A stretch of DNA of 64,000 bases from Flavipsychrobacter stenotrophus. Lineage in GTDB: Bacteria; Bacteroidota; Bacteroidia; Chitinophagales; Chitinophagaceae. The notes under the pieces were generated by a model that saw only the letters and a program-made list of their open reading frames with translations, was not told the origin of the DNA and did no database searches. The stretch lies in the NCBI RefSeq assembly GCF_002954265.1, contig NZ_PPSL01000003.1:248001-312000 (forward strand), given 5' to 3'. Both the position numbers and the translations under genes were made by a program. This document shows, piece after piece, positions 47,350 through 56,336 of the stretch; position 1 is the first letter of the stretch, and each line of letters opens with the position of its first letter.

Positions 47350-50300
47350 TTATCTTAGTAGCGTTACATTACCACGCATGTTTTTGATCTTGCCGGTTAG
47401 TGATGATACAGCCTGTATGTCGTAGACATATACGCCAAACGGTTGTGGTTCTCCTTTATAAGTGCCATCCCAGCCGCTACCGATCGTCTTTGTTTCGAAC
47501 ACCATTACTCCCCAACGGTTGAAAATACGGAAGTAGTTGAGTTTAGCAACACCATCAAGCATTATCTTAAATTCGTTGTTAGCACCAGTGCCAGGGGTAA
47601 AGGCGTTAGGAATACCATAGACGTTATCATCATTAACATGGAAGTTAATAGAGTCTTTGGCAACACAACCGTTTTCTGTGACCGCTGTAACTACATACAT
47701 CGTACTCACATCAGGCGTAGCCGTAGGGTCTGACACTAACGGATTATCTAAACCTTCCGGAGGGAACCAGGTGAAAGTGGAGCCATTGGTTATTGGTGAG
47801 ATATGATAAGATTCGCCGGGGTACAGTGTTACTGAGTCTCCGCTGTTGAGGCTTACCAGTGCCGCAGGGAATACGGTTACTGAGGCAAAGGCTGTATCGG
47901 TACAATTATACATATTGGTAGCAATGACCTGGTAGTCTATGTCTGATACAGGGTGAGCTGTAGTAACGAGACCTGTAGTAGCACTCAGGAACGAAGTAGG
48001 TAGCCAGCGAACCGTTGATAGCGGATTGTCGACAGAAGAGTGATATACGATTGTGCCGTGCGGGCAGATAGATGTATCGGTAGGAGTAACAGATACAGAA
48101 GGTTTTGGGTTAACTACCACCTGTATAGAATCTATTGGACTTACACAGCCATCAACTGTCTGGTTAAGGAAATAGAAATAAACACCCGGCACATTGGTAG
48201 GAGGTATAGGTGGCGTAGATGTGCCAACCCCACCTGCACTGCTAGGGAACCATAACACATTTGATGCATTAACTGCCTGTAAAGGCGGCGCATAGTCGAA
48301 CTGGCAGAAAGTAAGCCAGGTGATCCATGGGGCTAGTGGTGTCTGTTTAATGATCACTGTGGTTGAACCTGTATTAGTACAACCTCCGGCATCGCTTGTG
48401 GTCACATAATATACGCCCGAATATTCTATAATTGCCGGGAAGCGGGTGGGCGTAGCCCCTAATAGTGGTGTTGATATGTAAGGCCCTGTCCAGACAAAAG
48501 TATTGCTGGGTACGGATGACGCAAAGAGTTTAAGTGTATCTCCCGAGCAGACCGGACTATTGCTGGTTACGGTTAGAGATGGTGTTGTAGTTATAATTAC
48601 ATTGGTGGTTACAGATGCTGAGCAAGTGCCCATGTATGCGGTAACGGTGTACAGACCTCCTGCTGATGCCGGTGTATTGGTCATTCCCGTATTCTGTGAG
48701 GTGGATGTAAAACCTCCGGGGCCTGTCCACAAATAAGTAGATACGCTGTCATCAGTAGCGAAAAGTCGTAACGTATCTCCCTCGCATATAGCAGAGTTGT
48801 TGGTAGCTACAGGGACGGACGGTGTGGAAAGGATATTTACGTTAAAGCTAACAGTGTCTGAGCTACAGTTATTAAGTATCTCATAAACAGTGTATATACC
48901 GGTTGCGGCGGTTGTTACGCTTAGAATAGATGGGTTTTGAACTAATGATGTAAATCCATTAGGCCCCGTCCAGTGGAATACGCCCACGTAGGGTGTAAAC
49001 GTAGCAGTAAGATTAAGCAACTGTCCGGCGCATATAGGGGCATTACTACCCACTATAGGGTTGTATGGTGTTTGCTTAATAAGCACATTGGTGGCCACAC
49101 TATCCTTACACAAGCCAAGTGTAACGGTAACAGTGTAGTTGCCCGACATATTCGTCTGCGCGTTCAAAATAGTAGGGTTTTGCATGGTAGAAGTGAACAA
49201 TGCAGGGCCGTGCCAGTAATAGGTTACTGTGCTGGTGTCAGTTGCGTACAGGTGAAGTACGCTATCTGAACAAATTGGTCCATTGTTCCATGCTAGCGGC
49301 GCACCAGGCATAGGGTCTACCACGAAATTATTATAAGCAACAGTGGTGCTGCAGCTACCGTTGGTTGCATATACAGAGTACAGCCCTGATGCGGCGGTAG
49401 TAGCATTAGGTATGGTTGGGTGTGTGATTGTAGAGGTGAAGCCATTAGGCCCGCTCCAATGGTATACTGCCCCGGGCGTAAGGGTTGCCGGATCTATTTG
49501 CAGATCTATGGTTCCACCCGCGCAAATACGCGTTTGCGGGAGGACATATGGTATGGTAGGCATTGTACTGACTACTACATTCAAAGTATTGGTTGCCGAG
49601 CAAGCTCCACTGGTTGCCGTAAGCGTATAAATACCTGAATTGGTGGCGGTGACAGCTGTGAACGTTGGGTTTTGCGTCGTAGAGCTTAATCCACCCGGGC
49701 CGCTCCAGGCCCATGTTACACCGCTGAGGGTATCTGTAGCAAACAGTTGTAAATTATCACCACTACAAAGAGGGCCGTTGCTGCTTAGAATAGGTACGGT
49801 AACGTGTATGACGTGAACATGTGTGGAAGCTGTATCGGTACAGCCATCAAGTGTTGCTATAACTGTATAGAACCCGGTGTCTACTTCGGAGGCTGGGGCG
49901 ATTGTAGGGTTTTGAAGTACAGAGGTAAAAACGTTAGGTCCGCTCCAGCTGAACGTTTGCCCCGTAGTGGTAGGGCCGCTGGTAAGGCTGATAGTGCCAC
50001 CAACGCAAACAGGAGAATTGCTGCCGGCTGTAATTACCGGGTTTAGTTTTATTGAGAAATGCGTTGATTCTGTATCAGGTACACCACCGTAGGTCTTGAT
50101 GACAAAGTAGTCGCCAGAGTCGAGGTAGCTGACATTGGGTCTGATGGGGTTTTGCATTGTGCTGGTAAAGCCATTAGGGCCATACCATGAATAGGTAGCG
50201 CCTGTAGAATCGCCAAGCGCAGTAAGTTTGAGTGTATCTCCCTGGCAAACAGGACCATTATTTAATGGGGTAAGACAATCATTCACAATAATAGAAACCC

Positions 50301-51006
50301 TCTTTATGCTTTGCGTGCTTACAACGGCACCTGTACTGGCGCTAAAGCCAAAATAACCTGTAATGCTTAATGGGTAAGGAGTTACGGTAGAAATAGACGG
50401 AACAGCGCCGTAATTGAGGTAGACTCTTATGTTGCCCAGGAAGTAAGTAACTTTTACGTGATGCCAGTTACCATCTGTAATGAAGTTCTGATTGGTAAGA
50501 ACTGGTGCTAATTGGCCAGTTGCAGAGCCTTCTGTGTAGCTGGCGGTTGAACCGTTATAGCCAAGCAGGGTAATCAGTGGATTATCTGCACCTGCGGCGC
50601 TGTTGTTGTTGTACGTGTCAAAGATCAATACCATCCCGTTGGGGTTGGCTGGAAGGCCAATTGAAGAACCGGTAGAAGCTGTAGAAGGAGTAGTGGTCAA
50701 AAACCAGAAAGCCAGTCCATCTGCAACACCGCCACCGCTGGAAACTACTTTAAAATCGAACTCGGCAACCCATTGGCACCAGCCAGTCATATTTATGGCT
50801 GTATTGTAGTAACAATAGGATGCTGTACCTGTGGTGGTGTTGGTGAGGCGCATAGTACTATCAACTACAGCAGCCGGCCCGGCAGGAGAGCTGCCAAAGT
50901 TCCAGCCGGTGGTAACCAGCGGATATCCCGACAGCGAAATGTTGATCTGGCTAAAGCCCGAAAATGAGCTGATAACAAGAAATATGAGTAAAAATATTTT
51001 TTTCAT
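47350..51006 (-). CDS. L-type lectin-domain adhesin with Ig-like repeats and T9SS type B sorting domain
   Basis: 1218 residues. The signal peptide ends SGFSQ. The N-terminal domain (about 20-245) has the legume/L-type lectin plan: AEFDFKV, DGLAFWF, NGMVLIFDTYNN with the metal-site Asp-Asn pattern, NWHHVKVTYFLGNIRVYLNYG, and a closing TGYFGFSASTG. About nine to ten Ig-like repeats of 80-85 residues follow to about 1110, each with PVCxGDTLxLxA ... YxWxGPNGFTSTxQNPxI ... SGxYTVxxTxxxC. The type B sorting domain lies at about 1125-1218 (NAFTPGTGANNEF, FRIFNRWGVMVFET, GWDGTYKGEPQPFGVYVYDI, ending VTLLR). A secreted or surface glycan-binding protein is the likely role. Confidence 0.92.
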   Translation of the reverse strand: MKKIFLLIFLVISSFSGFSQINISLSGYPLVTTGWNFGSSPAGPAAVVDSTMRLTNTTTGTASYCYYNTAINMTGWCQWVAEFDFKVVSSGGGVADGLAFWFLTTTPSTASTGSSIGLPANPNGMVLIFDTYNNNSAAGADNPLITLLGYNGSTASYTEGSATGQLAPVLTNQNFITDGNWHHVKVTYFLGNIRVYLNYGAVPSISTVTPYPLSITGYFGFSASTGAVVSTQSIKRVSIIVNDCLTPLNNGPVCQGDTLKLTALGDSTGATYSWYGPNGFTSTMQNPIRPNVSYLDSGDYFVIKTYGGVPDTESTHFSIKLNPVITAGSNSPVCVGGTISLTSGPTTTGQTFSWSGPNVFTSVLQNPTIAPASEVDTGFYTVIATLDGCTDTASTHVHVIHVTVPILSSNGPLCSGDNLQLFATDTLSGVTWAWSGPGGLSSTTQNPTFTAVTATNSGIYTLTATSGACSATNTLNVVVSTMPTIPYVLPQTRICAGGTIDLQIDPATLTPGAVYHWSGPNGFTSTITHPTIPNATTAASGLYSVYATNGSCSTTVAYNNFVVDPMPGAPLAWNNGPICSDSVLHLYATDTSTVTYYWHGPALFTSTMQNPTILNAQTNMSGNYTVTVTLGLCKDSVATNVLIKQTPYNPIVGSNAPICAGQLLNLTATFTPYVGVFHWTGPNGFTSLVQNPSILSVTTAATGIYTVYEILNNCSSDTVSFNVNILSTPSVPVATNNSAICEGDTLRLFATDDSVSTYLWTGPGGFTSTSQNTGMTNTPASAGGLYTVTAYMGTCSASVTTNVIITTTPSLTVTSNSPVCSGDTLKLFASSVPSNTFVWTGPYISTPLLGATPTRFPAIIEYSGVYYVTTSDAGGCTNTGSTTVIIKQTPLAPWITWLTFCQFDYAPPLQAVNASNVLWFPSSAGGVGTSTPPIPPTNVPGVYFYFLNQTVDGCVSPIDSIQVVVNPKPSVSVTPTDTSICPHGTIVYHSSVDNPLSTVRWLPTSFLSATTGLVTTAHPVSDIDYQVIATNMYNCTDTAFASVTVFPAALVSLNSGDSVTLYPGESYHISPITNGSTFTWFPPEGLDNPLVSDPTATPDVSTMYVVTAVTENGCVAKDSINFHVNDDNVYGIPNAFTPGTGANNEFKIMLDGVAKLNYFRIFNRWGVMVFETKTIGSGWDGTYKGEPQPFGVYVYDIQAVSSLTGKIKNMRGNVTLLR

Positions 51007-51755: not shown

Positions 51756-52808
51756 ATGTCATCTTCTGCTAACATTTACCAACAGGTTATTATCAAATCA
51801 ATAAAGCAGGAAACTGCGGGTGTAAAAACATTTACACTCAGTTATGCAAATGGCGGGAACATACCCTATGTGGCAGGGCAGTTCATAACATTAGTATTTC
51901 AACATCACAACAAAGAAGAAAGACGTTCGTATTCTATATCCTCTTCTCCTGCGCTGCGTGAGCCATTGTCGTTCACTGTTAAGCGATTGGACAATGGTGC
52001 CTATTCCCGCTTGTTGCATGATAAGGCAGAAGTTGGGGATGTGCTCCTGACAACGGACGTTGCCGGACTGTTTACATTGCCGCTGAAAATAAATGTTGCT
52101 GCGCAATACTTCTTCTTTGCCGCTGGTATTGGCATTACACCTATCATCTCGCTGATCAAAACGCTGCTGATACAGAAGCCGGATATTGAAGCTGTCTTGG
52201 TATATAGTAACCGCACGGCAGACGATGTGGTATTCTTTAATGAACTGAACGAACTTGCGGCCAGGAATGGCGGCAAATTCAGGATAGAGTACCTGTACAG
52301 CACAGCATTCAATCTTTCGAGAGCAAGGCTGAATAAGGCTTTGGTGCGGCAGTTGCTCAATGAATACGGTAAGGTGGAGCGTGAAAATATGTACTGTTAT
52401 GTATGTGGCCCATTTGATTATATGCGTATGGTCATCTACGCGCTGGAGGAAAGCCGTGTAAAAGATGAACAGATAAGAAAAGAGAATTTTAACGTGAATG
52501 AGCGACCTGCTATGATAGTTGAGCCGCCTGACAAAGGCCAGCATAGGGTGACGATCATTCATAACAATTCATCTCTGACCATCAATTGCCAATACCCTGA
52601 TACGATACTAAAAGCAGCAAAGAAGAGTGGTATTGCATTGCCATATAGCTGCGAAACAGGGCGGTGTGGAAGCTGCGCTGCGCGCTGCATTGAAGGAAAT
52701 GTATGGCATTCTTATAATGAGGTGCTGATGGATATGGACCTGCGGCATGGCAGTATCCTTACCTGCACAGGCTATCCTGTTGGCGGAGATATTACAATAG
52801 AAGTTTAG
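51756..52808 (+). CDS. Ferredoxin-NADP reductase-like flavoprotein with C-terminal 2Fe-2S domain (PaaE type)
   Basis: 350 residues. The FAD domain has GQFITLVF and the RRSYSISSSP flavin motif (RxYS), about residues 50-62. The NAD(P) domain has FFAAGIGITPIISLIKTLL (about 107-126) and a YVCGPFDYM motif. The C-terminal plant-type ferredoxin domain has C299-x4-C304-x2-C307 and C337, all four cluster ligands. This order (FNR, then 2Fe-2S) is that of PaaE/HmpX-like reductases that pass electrons from NADPH to an oxygenase or desaturase. No oxygenase is adjacent, so the partner is unknown. Its stop codon overlaps that of the convergent membrane-protein gene. Confidence 0.92.
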   Translation: MSSSANIYQQVIIKSIKQETAGVKTFTLSYANGGNIPYVAGQFITLVFQHHNKEERRSYSISSSPALREPLSFTVKRLDNGAYSRLLHDKAEVGDVLLTTDVAGLFTLPLKINVAAQYFFFAAGIGITPIISLIKTLLIQKPDIEAVLVYSNRTADDVVFFNELNELAARNGGKFRIEYLYSTAFNLSRARLNKALVRQLLNEYGKVERENMYCYVCGPFDYMRMVIYALEESRVKDEQIRKENFNVNERPAMIVEPPDKGQHRVTIIHNNSSLTINCQYPDTILKAAKKSGIALPYSCETGRCGSCAARCIEGNVWHSYNEVLMDMDLRHGSILTCTGYPVGGDITIEV

Positions 52809-54496
52809 TGCTGTTCTACACCCGTCTTGGTCATATCTACTGTGTGCCATTGGTTGCCTACCTGAAACAATAGCAGGTAACCAGAAGCCGGCTTCTTAAG
52901 CATTAGCTCATACATGTGCCCGGGGTCCTTCATGTTGATTGTATAGTCGCTATTGCTGTAGCCGTGGCCACCCTGCATGGCATACCACCACCACGTTCCC
53001 CATTGATTGAGCGTAACCTGTATGGTACTGTCATTGAGTACGGTGACATGTGCCCCATCATCGGGGGTGAGCATATTGTAGGCCATCGCATCATACACCT
53101 GTCCTTTTATCTTTTCAGCAGGAAGCAGATCATCATGCATCATTCTAAATTCGCTTTCCTGCTCTGCACCTATCATTGCCGCGCCCTGCATATTCTGTGG
53201 CAGGTTGAGCAATACAATGGTCTTGTCTGAAGTGTATGGAAAGCTATGCAATAATGAACTGATCACACGTTCAGACTTCATCCAATACCGCGATAATTGT
53301 ATGGCAATTCTAAGGTTGATCAATGCATATACAGCAACAATGCCAATGCGGATAGCTGATAAGGATATATAACTAACAAGCAGTGCCAGCAGCATATACA
53401 CAAATGCATTAGCAAAGTAAGTGTAGCGGTCGTAAATGATGAGCATGATGTCGCCAAACCAAAGCGGGACAAGCAATGCAAGGGTTATCAACAACCACAT
53501 AAATAACAAACTTGCAACGCGCCCCTTGCCTTGCATAGAGCGGAAACGCAATACGATAAATGAACACAGAATGATGACAAGTGCATAGAATGCAATGACA
53601 CCAGGAGTCGAGTCTAACCAACCATAAACGATATGCTTATTGGTGTTGGAAAAGAAGCGGCCCATGAGCAACGTGTGAAACAAATGCTTGGCGGGCTTGC
53701 CCAGGCCCTCTTGCAGCGCAGTACTCACAGCACCCTTCCCTATATGGGCTACCCATGTGCCATAGTACATTCTGAAGAGGCACAAGTGAAGCACGAATAA
53801 CAACGCTTGTGGCAGAGTAATGAACTTTAGAACTTTAGTAAAAGCCTGTTTGCGGAAGGCATCATTGAGTCTGTAAAAAATACCCATGCAAAGCACCAAC
53901 CATGGCGTGATATAGAAGATCTCCAGCGAGAATGTAGATAGTAGGAACGTGATCCCTGCAAGCCATGCATACCTTTTCTTTTCTGTGTGAATGTAACTAT
54001 GTGTCCAGTTGAGAATAAGCAGGATCAAAAGCATCCCCTGCAGGTAATGGAATGAAGGCTCCCAAACAATTACTTCAGCAGCATAAGGACTAATGCAAAA
54101 GAGTAAGGTGCCTGCAAGGGTAATGACAGATGCACTTGCTACGCCTGAGTCTTTCAATAGCCTAACACAAACTCTGTAGAGCAGGCTGCAATTAGCAGCA
54201 TGCAGTGTTATGAACAGTAAGTGCCACGGCCAGGGGTGCGTGCCTGCTATCTGGTGGAATAACCATGTATTGAGCTGCGTAAATTGATAAAGACTCTGCA
54301 CCTGGAAGTGGGTTCTATTAAGATTGTCCCAGAATCCGTACTTCAAAGTCTGGTTTAGCCAGCCGGTATAATCTGCTACAAATCCGGCCTTAGCAGCCGG
54401 GAAGTACAGCACAAACAGCACTACCCACACGGCACCGAAAACCAGGTCGGTACTGATGGGTTTGGATAGTTGTTGTCTGAATTTTTGTAGTTGCAC
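52805..54496 (-). CDS. Polytopic membrane protein, GT-C-like, with soluble C-terminal domain
   Basis: 563 residues from GTG 54496. The open frame reaches TTG 54547, but a TATATTTG promoter box lies inside that extension, so the GTG is preferred. About 9-11 hydrophobic helices span residues about 15-415. An acidic motif in the first periplasmic loop (FVADYTGWLNQ) and HPWPWHLLFITLHAANCSLLY resemble the layout of Bacteroidota GT-C glycosyltransferase-like proteins; the assignment is tentative. Residues about 430-563 are soluble. The stretch from TPDDGAHVT (about 477) to the end resembles the C-terminal extension of the adjacent MgtE. The stop TAA overlaps the TAG of the convergent gene (shared bases 52805-52808). 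Confidence 0.7.
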   Translation of the reverse strand: MQLQKFRQQLSKPISTDLVFGAVWVVLFVLYFPAAKAGFVADYTGWLNQTLKYGFWDNLNRTHFQVQSLYQFTQLNTWLFHQIAGTHPWPWHLLFITLHAANCSLLYRVCVRLLKDSGVASASVITLAGTLLFCISPYAAEVIVWEPSFHYLQGMLLILLILNWTHSYIHTEKKRYAWLAGITFLLSTFSLEIFYITPWLVLCMGIFYRLNDAFRKQAFTKVLKFITLPQALLFVLHLCLFRMYYGTWVAHIGKGAVSTALQEGLGKPAKHLFHTLLMGRFFSNTNKHIVYGWLDSTPGVIAFYALVIILCSFIVLRFRSMQGKGRVASLLFMWLLITLALLVPLWFGDIMLIIYDRYTYFANAFVYMLLALLVSYISLSAIRIGIVAVYALINLRIAIQLSRYWMKSERVISSLLHSFPYTSDKTIVLLNLPQNMQGAAMIGAEQESEFRMMHDDLLPAEKIKGQVYDAMAYNMLTPDDGAHVTVLNDSTIQVTLNQWGTWWWYAMQGGHGYSNSDYTINMKDPGHMYELMLKKPASGYLLLFQVGNQWHTVDMTKTGVEQH

Positions 54497-54515
54497 TATA
54501 GTAATGGATGTGGGG

Positions 54516-54523
54516 CAAATATA
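54516..54523 (-). promoter_or_regulatory. -7 box TATATTTG of the GT-C-like gene
   Basis: Exact TAnnTTTG match, 19 bases before GTG 54496, with ATTG 21 bases upstream as a -33 element. It fixes the start downstream of the apparent TTG. Confidence 0.6.
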
Positions 54524-54608
54524 AACACTCGGAAGAGAATTGAGCAATTGTTTCGCAAGCGTGGCACCATCATTCTTTGAGTCGAAGCGAGATGATTTGA
54601 TGAGTGTT

Positions 54609-56336
54609 CTATTTCACTTTCGCTTCCAATGTTTTCCCTTGTCCCGCCGAAGGGTACATCACCAGGTATTTGTGGGCAGTTTGTTTCAGCTTTACGTCGT
54701 AATAAGTCCACCCTGCTACCAGATCAAGTGTATAGTCGTCGTCCTGGTAATGTCCCGCAGTTTTCATGTTGCGCACCAGGGCTCCCATTTTACTATTCAG
54801 GGGCACGCGTACTGTATTGGCGTTAATAAAGTACGGCTGCGTGTCCGGGGTATTCGCTTCCGGCATGGCCAGATTAATAATGGTCATATTGCCATTATGA
54901 ATAGTTGCTAAAGGTGCTTTATCGTTACTGCCCAGTATGGTACCACGTAGAATAATTGCCGCAAAACTAAAGTAAATGATCAGTCCTGTAACGTCTACCA
55001 ATGTAGCCACAAATGGTGCGGAAGATGTTGCAGGATCAAGACCAAGGCGCTTCAGTATCATAGGTATCATAGAGCCGCTAAGCGTTCCCCAAAGTACTAT
55101 GCCTACCAATGATAAGGAAACAGTAAGTGCAGTAAGATACCAGTAGTTGCCTGTGCCGGGTGCGCCCCATGCGCCTTTTATGCCGTAGTTGCTCCAGTGT
55201 AGTTGCTGCCATATGGCTATGCGGATAAATCCGATAACACCCAGTATAAGCCCAAGGGTAAGCCCGGACATGATCTCGCGGCGCATAACGTACCACCACT
55301 TGCGGGTAGTAAATTCATTGAGCGCCATAGCACGGATGATTAGCGTTGCCGCCTGTGATCCGCTGTTACCACCACTGGAAATAATCAATGGTACGAACAG
55401 AGATAATACTATAGCCGCATCCAGCTCGTCCTGGAAGTGCCCCATGGCTGTAGCAGTAAGCATCTCACTGAGGAACAGGATGATGAGCCACACGGCACGC
55501 TTGCGGATAAGGGTAAAGAATGGTGTTTTTACATACGGCAGGTCTAACGATTCGAGACCACCGAACTGCTGCATGTCTTTAGTGTCCTTTTCTTCGGCCA
55601 CGTCCATTACATCATCAATGGTTACCACACCCATCACAATGTTATTACTGTTGGTAACGGGTATGGCCACACGGTCGTACTCCTTAAACTTCTGGATGGC
55701 ATTGTCTATACTATCCTGTATATCCAGCTTCACATAAAAGCCATCCATAATGTCGGCAATGGTCTTAGAGCCTTCATTCAATACCAGTCTGCGGATAGGG
55801 ATCTCATCTATGAGTTTACCATCATTATCTACAACAAAGATCACGTTGGCGGCAGGGGTATCTGTGTAGAAGCGGCGTATGTGTTCACGCGCCTGGCCTA
55901 TGGTCCACTCCTTACGCACTGTGGTGAATTTGGTATTGATCAGCCTGGCCACACTCTTTTCGGGGTAACCAAGAAGATCGTAAGTAGCCAGTCGATTCTT
56001 GTCATCCAACAGGTTCAGGTACTCAGTAACCTCTATGCCGTCCAGTTCGTCAAAAAACGAGACCCGGTCGTTGGACGTAAGATTATTAAGGAGATTAGAG
56101 ATCTGCGGGCGCGGCATGTCTTCGGTCACATCGCGCTGCAGTACATGGTTAAGGTGCGGGAATATCTTTATTTCTACATCTTCGGGAAGGGCAAGAAAGG
56201 TATGAACGGCATAGTCATGCGGGAGGGTCTCTAAGATCTTAGATACCTCAGCAGCGTAATCCTCGTCCTTGCTGTGTGCCAGCAGGTCGCTGAAATCGCC
56301 CTCCAGAATTTTCTCCCTCAGGTCCTGAACCAGCAT
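54609..56336 (-). CDS. mgtE: Magnesium transporter MgtE with a C-terminal extension
   Basis: 575 residues; MgtE is usually about 450. The N-terminal superhelical domain covers about 1-130 (PHLNHVLQRDVTED..., FFDELDGIE). Two CBS domains cover about 135-260 (VIFVVDNDGKLIDEIPIRRLVL, VAIPVTNSNNIVMGVVTIDDVMDV). Five membrane helices span about 285-465 with the selectivity region PLIISSGGNSGSQAATLIIRAMAL. MgtE is a homodimeric Mg2+ channel gated by Mg2+ in its cytosolic domains. About 110 extra residues follow the last helix. From TPDTQPYF (residue 496) onward they resemble the C-terminus of the neighbouring membrane protein. A -7 box lies 82 bases upstream, giving a leader of about 75 nt. Confidence 0.93.
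   Translation of the reverse strand: MLVQDLREKILEGDFSDLLAHSKDEDYAAEVSKILETLPHDYAVHTFLALPEDVEIKIFPHLNHVLQRDVTEDMPRPQISNLLNNLTSNDRVSFFDELDGIEVTEYLNLLDDKNRLATYDLLGYPEKSVARLINTKFTTVRKEWTIGQAREHIRRFYTDTPAANVIFVVDNDGKLIDEIPIRRLVLNEGSKTIADIMDGFYVKLDIQDSIDNAIQKFKEYDRVAIPVTNSNNIVMGVVTIDDVMDVAEEKDTKDMQQFGGLESLDLPYVKTPFFTLIRKRAVWLIILFLSEMLTATAMGHFQDELDAAIVLSLFVPLIISSGGNSGSQAATLIIRAMALNEFTTRKWWYVMRREIMSGLTLGLILGVIGFIRIAIWQQLHWSNYGIKGAWGAPGTGNYWYLTALTVSLSLVGIVLWGTLSGSMIPMILKRLGLDPATSSAPFVATLVDVTGLIIYFSFAAIILRGTILGSNDKAPLATIHNGNMTIINLAMPEANTPDTQPYFINANTVRVPLNSKMGALVRNMKTAGHYQDDDYTLDLVAGWTYYDVKLKQTAHKYLVMYPSAGQGKTLEAKVK

Follow-up and report, generated by a model that had tools for sequence, protein, structure and literature searches.

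The 64,000-nucleotide stretch of the Flavipsychrobacter stenotrophus genome analysed here (the window) carries the gene of an MgtE-type protein beside that of an unrelated polytopic membrane protein, and a preliminary description had claimed that the two proteins end in the same domain. This raises the questions of whether the two C-terminal regions are homologous, which protein had the domain first, and whether its presence on both reflects domain transfer or a functional link, such as a common partner. The features concerned are as follows.

54609-56336, minus strand: MgtE open reading frame, 575 aa
54945-56336, minus strand: MgtE core, residues 1-464, with MgtE_N, the CBS pair and the five-helix MgtE pore (Pfam MgtE_N, CBS and MgtE, and TIGR00400, above cut-offs)
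54843-54944, minus strand: MgtE junction or linker, residues 465-498, past the last membrane helix (alignments of 10 genus members)
54612-54842, minus strand: shared domain of MgtE, residues 499-575 (about 77 residues, beta-rich; BLASTP, genome and profile searches, hhalign, model)
54516-54523, minus strand: TATATTTG in the mgtE-GT-C spacer, fitting the -7 promoter consensus of the Bacteroidota, TAnnTTTG (sequence)
52805-54496, minus strand: neighbouring GT-C-fold membrane protein, likely GTG start (structure model; no Pfam or NCBIfam family)
52808-53098, minus strand: C-terminal domain of the GT-C protein, homologous to the MgtE tail (BLASTP, hhalign, profile search)

The -7 consensus is that published for the Bacteroidota (PMC9723704), and the TATATTTG box was also found between the two genes in most of the mgtE-GT-C loci read. 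Because the mechanical start of the neighbour frame, a TTG at 54547 (52805-54547, minus strand), is located upstream of this box, translation likely starts at the GTG at 54496 instead. Near mgtE, a search for a Mg2+ riboswitch gave no Rfam match. Elsewhere in the window, positions 47350-51006 encode a large protein with repeated Ig/PKD-like units and a gliding/T9SS-type C-terminus, whose position is conserved in close congeners.

An MgtE with an additional C-terminal domain

The window protein is, by its sequence, a member of the MgtE magnesium channel family, with Mg2+ transport as its predicted activity. It scored 314.2 bits with the TIGR00400 equivalog model (cut-off 232.75), its MgtE_N, CBS and MgtE pore domains all exceeded the Pfam cut-offs, and it is the sole MgtE of its genome. 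Both pore motifs described for the family, PX6GN and P(D/A)X4PX6D (PMC9276622), are present in the translation, as PLIISSGGN and PATSSAPFVATLVD. Thus, the protein shares with known MgtE proteins of TIGR00400 the whole core, comprising the N domain, the CBS pair, the five-helix pore and both pore motifs, but differs from them in continuing past the last helix for about 110 residues, part of which form a folded domain.

The claim that a normal MgtE has no such domain agrees with our data, in that the family model stops at residue 463 of the window protein and, of the 37 tail-less relatives included in the MgtE tree, 34 terminate no more than about 20 residues from the last-helix DVTG motif and three bear a short unrelated C-terminal extension. 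Among the matches listed in the phylum sample, the window had the longest MgtE open frame. Our literature search, which covered few subscription papers, found no report of an MgtE with an extra C-terminal domain. In the MgtE topology, a cytosolic N-terminal part precedes the five helices and the TM1-TM2 loop is extracytoplasmic (PMC7231995), so that the C-terminus is expected to be outside.

The neighbour as a GT-C-fold protein

The neighbouring protein matched no family in Pfam or NCBIfam. A model built from 20 sequences (pTM 0.81) gave a VIA Z of 20.2 to yeast STT3 (8agb_A) over 323 residues (rmsd 5.0) and of 15.8 to ArnT (5f15), and the VIA entries listed at Z > 11 were GT-C enzymes or GT-C-fold subunits. 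In addition, D42 (alignment A4, in FVxDxxxWL), located in the first external loop, between the first two helices, was invariant in the 20 sequences, and the soluble C-terminal region bears a near-invariant motif, NQWGTWWW. As modelled, the neighbour is a divergent protein of the GT-C glycosyltransferase fold, for which glycosyl transfer, and catalysis by D42, are putative. It resembles the GT-C glycosyltransferases STT3/PglB, ArnT and PMT in its multi-helix GT-C fold, invariant external-loop Asp and soluble C-terminal domain, but differs from them in lacking Pfam/NCBIfam membership and in its C-terminal domain, which forms a small separate family with no significant match among solved structures. 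In GT-C enzymes such as PglB and ArnT the C-terminal domains are periplasmic; together with the MgtE topology given above, this means that the C-termini of both window proteins should be on the periplasmic side.

Homology of the two tails

The alignment of the two tails noticed earlier held up in a two-sequence BLASTP, which gave 27% identity over 78 residues (E 2e-7). With the window MgtE tail as query, a search of 149 whole family genomes retrieved, apart from one congener's MgtE tail, nothing but C-termini of the GT-C family. When all 10 genus tails of MgtE were aligned and the resulting MgtE-only profile was searched in six frames over the 11 whole genus genomes, it found, down to E 0.1, only MgtE tails and GT-C C-termini: the ten MgtE tails themselves scored E 1e-41 to 1e-54, whereas the GT-C C-termini lay between E 2e-8 and 4e-16 (window neighbour, E 1.4e-10), except for a fragment of 36 residues at E 0.004. 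Comparison of the MgtE-tail and GT-C-tail profiles by hhalign, for which 6 of the 10 MgtE rows were taken, was likewise significant (score 88.8, E 2.6e-15), the best of 200 column shuffles scoring 28.5 and a reversed profile 11.9. The outcome that would have spoken against the preliminary description, a profile comparison in which the tails fail to match significantly, thus did not arise.

A resemblance arising by chance or convergence between short beta-rich segments might be suspected from the mere 27% identity of the window pair, but across whole genomes the MgtE-tail profile picked out GT-C C-termini specifically, and the profile-profile score was three times that of the best shuffle; these two results make it vanishingly improbable, and it was rejected. 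The homology of the MgtE tail and the GT-C C-terminal domain therefore holds at the sequence level, on somewhat different motifs from those initially proposed. Recurrent in both families are N-x-(S/T)-T-(V/I)-x-V-x-L, G-x(1-3)-Y, DY, Y-(D/E)-x-x-(L/I) and the last strands. The MgtE tails do not conserve TPD, G-x5-M, A-x2-YL or the N that closes the first motif; of these, TPD, G-x5-M and A-x2-YL are accidents of the window pair.

Separate structure models of the two tails had a matching strand order. Modelled alone from MgtE rows only, the MgtE tail was beta-rich (mean pLDDT 79, pTM 0.74), and its strand series agreed with that of the model from GT-C rows only: TVRVP/STIQVTL, DYTLDL/DYTINMK, YYDVKL/YELMLK, YLVMYPS/YLLLFQV and KTLEA/WHTV. 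At the position of the poorly modelled WWW loop of the GT-C domain, the MgtE tail model has a short helix. The preceding linker (465-498) showed a weak global alignment with the GT-C strand VYDAMAYNM, and in the structure model it starts at low pLDDT, with two strands after. Against solved structures, the best resemblances of the MgtE tail model were to immunoglobulin-like beta-sandwiches (T-cell receptor V domains), but the scores were weak (Z at most 3.8; Foldseek E 0.5 or worse, none below 0.001), as for a common arrangement rather than a relationship. The structure searches thus found no known fold for the tail with confidence, from which novelty of the fold does not follow.

Distribution and direction of transfer

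The domain was carried by 58 of 396 family genomes and 65 of 299 order genomes, and was practically absent outside the order in a phylum sample of 395 genomes. Outside the genus, the carriers were GT-C proteins of about 540-600 aa or pieces thereof, the full-length ones being mostly judged by frame length. Of the carriers of odd length, L177, L178, L179 and L181 were fragments or pieces at contig edges that matched the GT-C profile, and in L175 the frame of a GT-C protein was extended at its N-terminus. A weak match in L155/L176 (E 5e-6) was to a TPR/SH3-like protein with no GT-C match and was treated as chance. Promiscuity of the domain was considered and dismissed, no other kinds of carrier having been seen among the odd-length frames read.

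MgtE with the tail was found in one genus only, in all 10 of its MgtE-bearing genomes; no mgtE was detected in the eleventh genus genome (74% complete). In the MgtE-core tree, the ten fusions formed one clade (support 100/100) among relatives that end just after the last helix, those named being Chitinophagaceae assemblies labelled Flavipsychrobacter or Taibaiella. As far as the core sequences can tell, the tree shows that the fusion arose once, at the base of one genus. Since the domain is common in the GT-C family of the order and occurs on MgtE in one genus only, the sequences give a clear direction of transfer, from GT-C protein to MgtE; transfer from MgtE to the GT-C protein was ruled out by this distribution. 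A tree could not name the source GT-C copy of the tail, the stem being too long.

Gene order and origin of the fusion

In 14 loci with a tail-less MgtE, the GT-C gene is next downstream in the same orientation (L048, L049, L127, L129, L132-L135, L139-L142, L146 and L151). For example, in the distant pair L048 and L049, an MgtE of 459 aa ends a few bases before the GT-C frame. Judged from these gene orders, the adjacency is shown to be older than the fusion and, as tail-less relatives already have the mgtE-GT-C order, fusion between old neighbours is the simplest account. The GT-C gene still neighbours mgtE in 8 of the 10 fusion genomes. In the congener G090, an unrelated protein of 572 aa with a T9SS-like C-terminus is encoded between the two genes (L077 5665-7380, equal to L038 7665-9380). 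The suggestion of domain transfer is thus strongly supported for neighbouring genes, with a direction and a pre-existing gene adjacency.

A local rearrangement may have placed the GT-C domain in frame at the end of mgtE, either by tandem duplication of the GT-C gene followed by internal deletion or by partial duplication of the GT-C 3' end. Duplication with internal deletion is likely because tandem GT-C copies exist elsewhere (four in L041 and three in L185). No mgtE-GT-C-GT-C intermediate was found, and we infer the exact rearrangement. The joining would have been eased by both C-termini being on the periplasmic side.

Three further loci, L117, L118 and L149, have an unrelated MgtE extension of about 45 residues and are sister to the fusion clade (89/72, moderate support). 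In L117 and L149, this extension arises by read-through of the spacer and terminates in HEYIC, the residues encoded by the TATATTTG box; in tail-less relatives such as L129 and L133 this box follows the mgtE stop codon. The lineage has therefore lengthened the C-terminus of MgtE by two separate routes, fusion with the GT-C tail and, in the sister clade, read-through. A domain remnant in the sister-clade extension was looked for and rejected, there being no similarity and no remnant ahead of the next gene. At L117 1840-1945 and L149 7420-7520, the mgtE frame overlaps the box, as a coding extension over a putative promoter.

Conservation and possible role of the tail

All ten MgtE tails are intact and share 12 invariant columns, and the others are 34-64% identical in amino acids to that of the window. 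In the closest pair, the tail has a dN of 0.25 and the core one of 0.01, and synonymous sites are saturated (pS 0.86); saturation even in this pair rules out a dN/dS estimate for the tail. The MgtE tails lie on a long tree stem relative to the GT-C tails, that of G152 being very diverged, the most so of all. Of 30 alignable near-invariant GT-C positions, 22 were changed in the MgtE tails and eight were kept by the MgtE majority; NQWGTWWW, the most conserved motif of the GT-C tails, is lost, and the MgtE tails have an invariant R-V-P of their own. Intactness in ten genomes and 12 invariant columns despite synonymous saturation argue for some selection, and retention under weak to moderate selection is the best reading.

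Probably, the MgtE tail was copied from the periplasmic beta-domain at the C-terminus of the GT-C protein and has become an MgtE-specific periplasmic appendage. It may no longer perform the task it has in the GT-C protein; most likely, at moderate confidence, it would now serve as a cap or as a dimer or envelope contact, affecting stability or access to the outer channel mouth. The invariant R-V-P and the loss of NQWGTWWW are points for such a new role. The rapid change of the tail relative to the core and its long stem count against it, as they fit weakly constrained baggage too.

Indeed, a serious rival holds that the tail, a tolerated by-product of an accidental fusion with little or no function, has been kept because the MgtE C-terminus is permissive and losing the tail brings no benefit. 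It is compatible with the fast evolution of the tail, with the strongly diverged tail of G152 and with the different 45-residue extension of the sister clade, which implies that the C-terminus tolerates additions. Nevertheless, we regard it as unlikely, because a neutral frame would be broken or randomised, whereas ten tails have stayed intact, with their invariant columns and 34-64% identity to the window's tail, across saturated synonymous divergence.

The other possibility raised initially was a functional link, such as a common partner. In such a reading, the two proteins would bind one partner or each other through the domain, coupling Mg uptake to an envelope glycan pathway. The same domain is present on both proteins, on the same side of the membrane, and the genes are adjacent in most fusion genomes (in one of the eight with the T9SS-type gene between), but this arrangement is older than the fusion and common in its absence. 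Moreover, the near-invariant GT-C motif is lost and most near-invariant positions are changed in the MgtE tails, and the tail is kept both in G150, whose GT-C gene lies elsewhere, and in G152 (rated 100% complete), in which no GT-C gene of the family was detectable. A functional link is thus unsupported by our data and very improbable. G152 (L076 5016-6728), the sole complete congener without the GT-C gene, is at the same time the genome whose MgtE tail is most diverged; this single case may point to a dependence between the two. The best reading is that the tail represents a structural scaffold reused for an MgtE-specific periplasmic role, not a link to the neighbour.

Known regulation of MgtE is cytosolic, by Mg2+ and ATP. 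That MgtE might also be gated or positioned from outside, through binding of a glycan, lipid or protein by the tail, is a speculative and rather unlikely reading.

Significance

The channel and the superfamily are both known and the domain is uncatalogued; their combination gives the known channel a new architecture, with a putative role. This is a clean example in which a polytopic membrane protein has acquired a folded domain from the product of the adjacent gene, and relatives still show the gene order that preceded the fusion. Topology was preserved in the fusion, and in the sister lineage the same channel was lengthened by spacer read-through. The analysis also brings to light a GT-C family of the order Chitinophagales that has its own C-terminal domain, often occurs in tandem copies and has no Pfam/NCBIfam entry. 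If the domain is functional, it would provide an outside-facing control point on MgtE, a channel whose known regulation is cytosolic.
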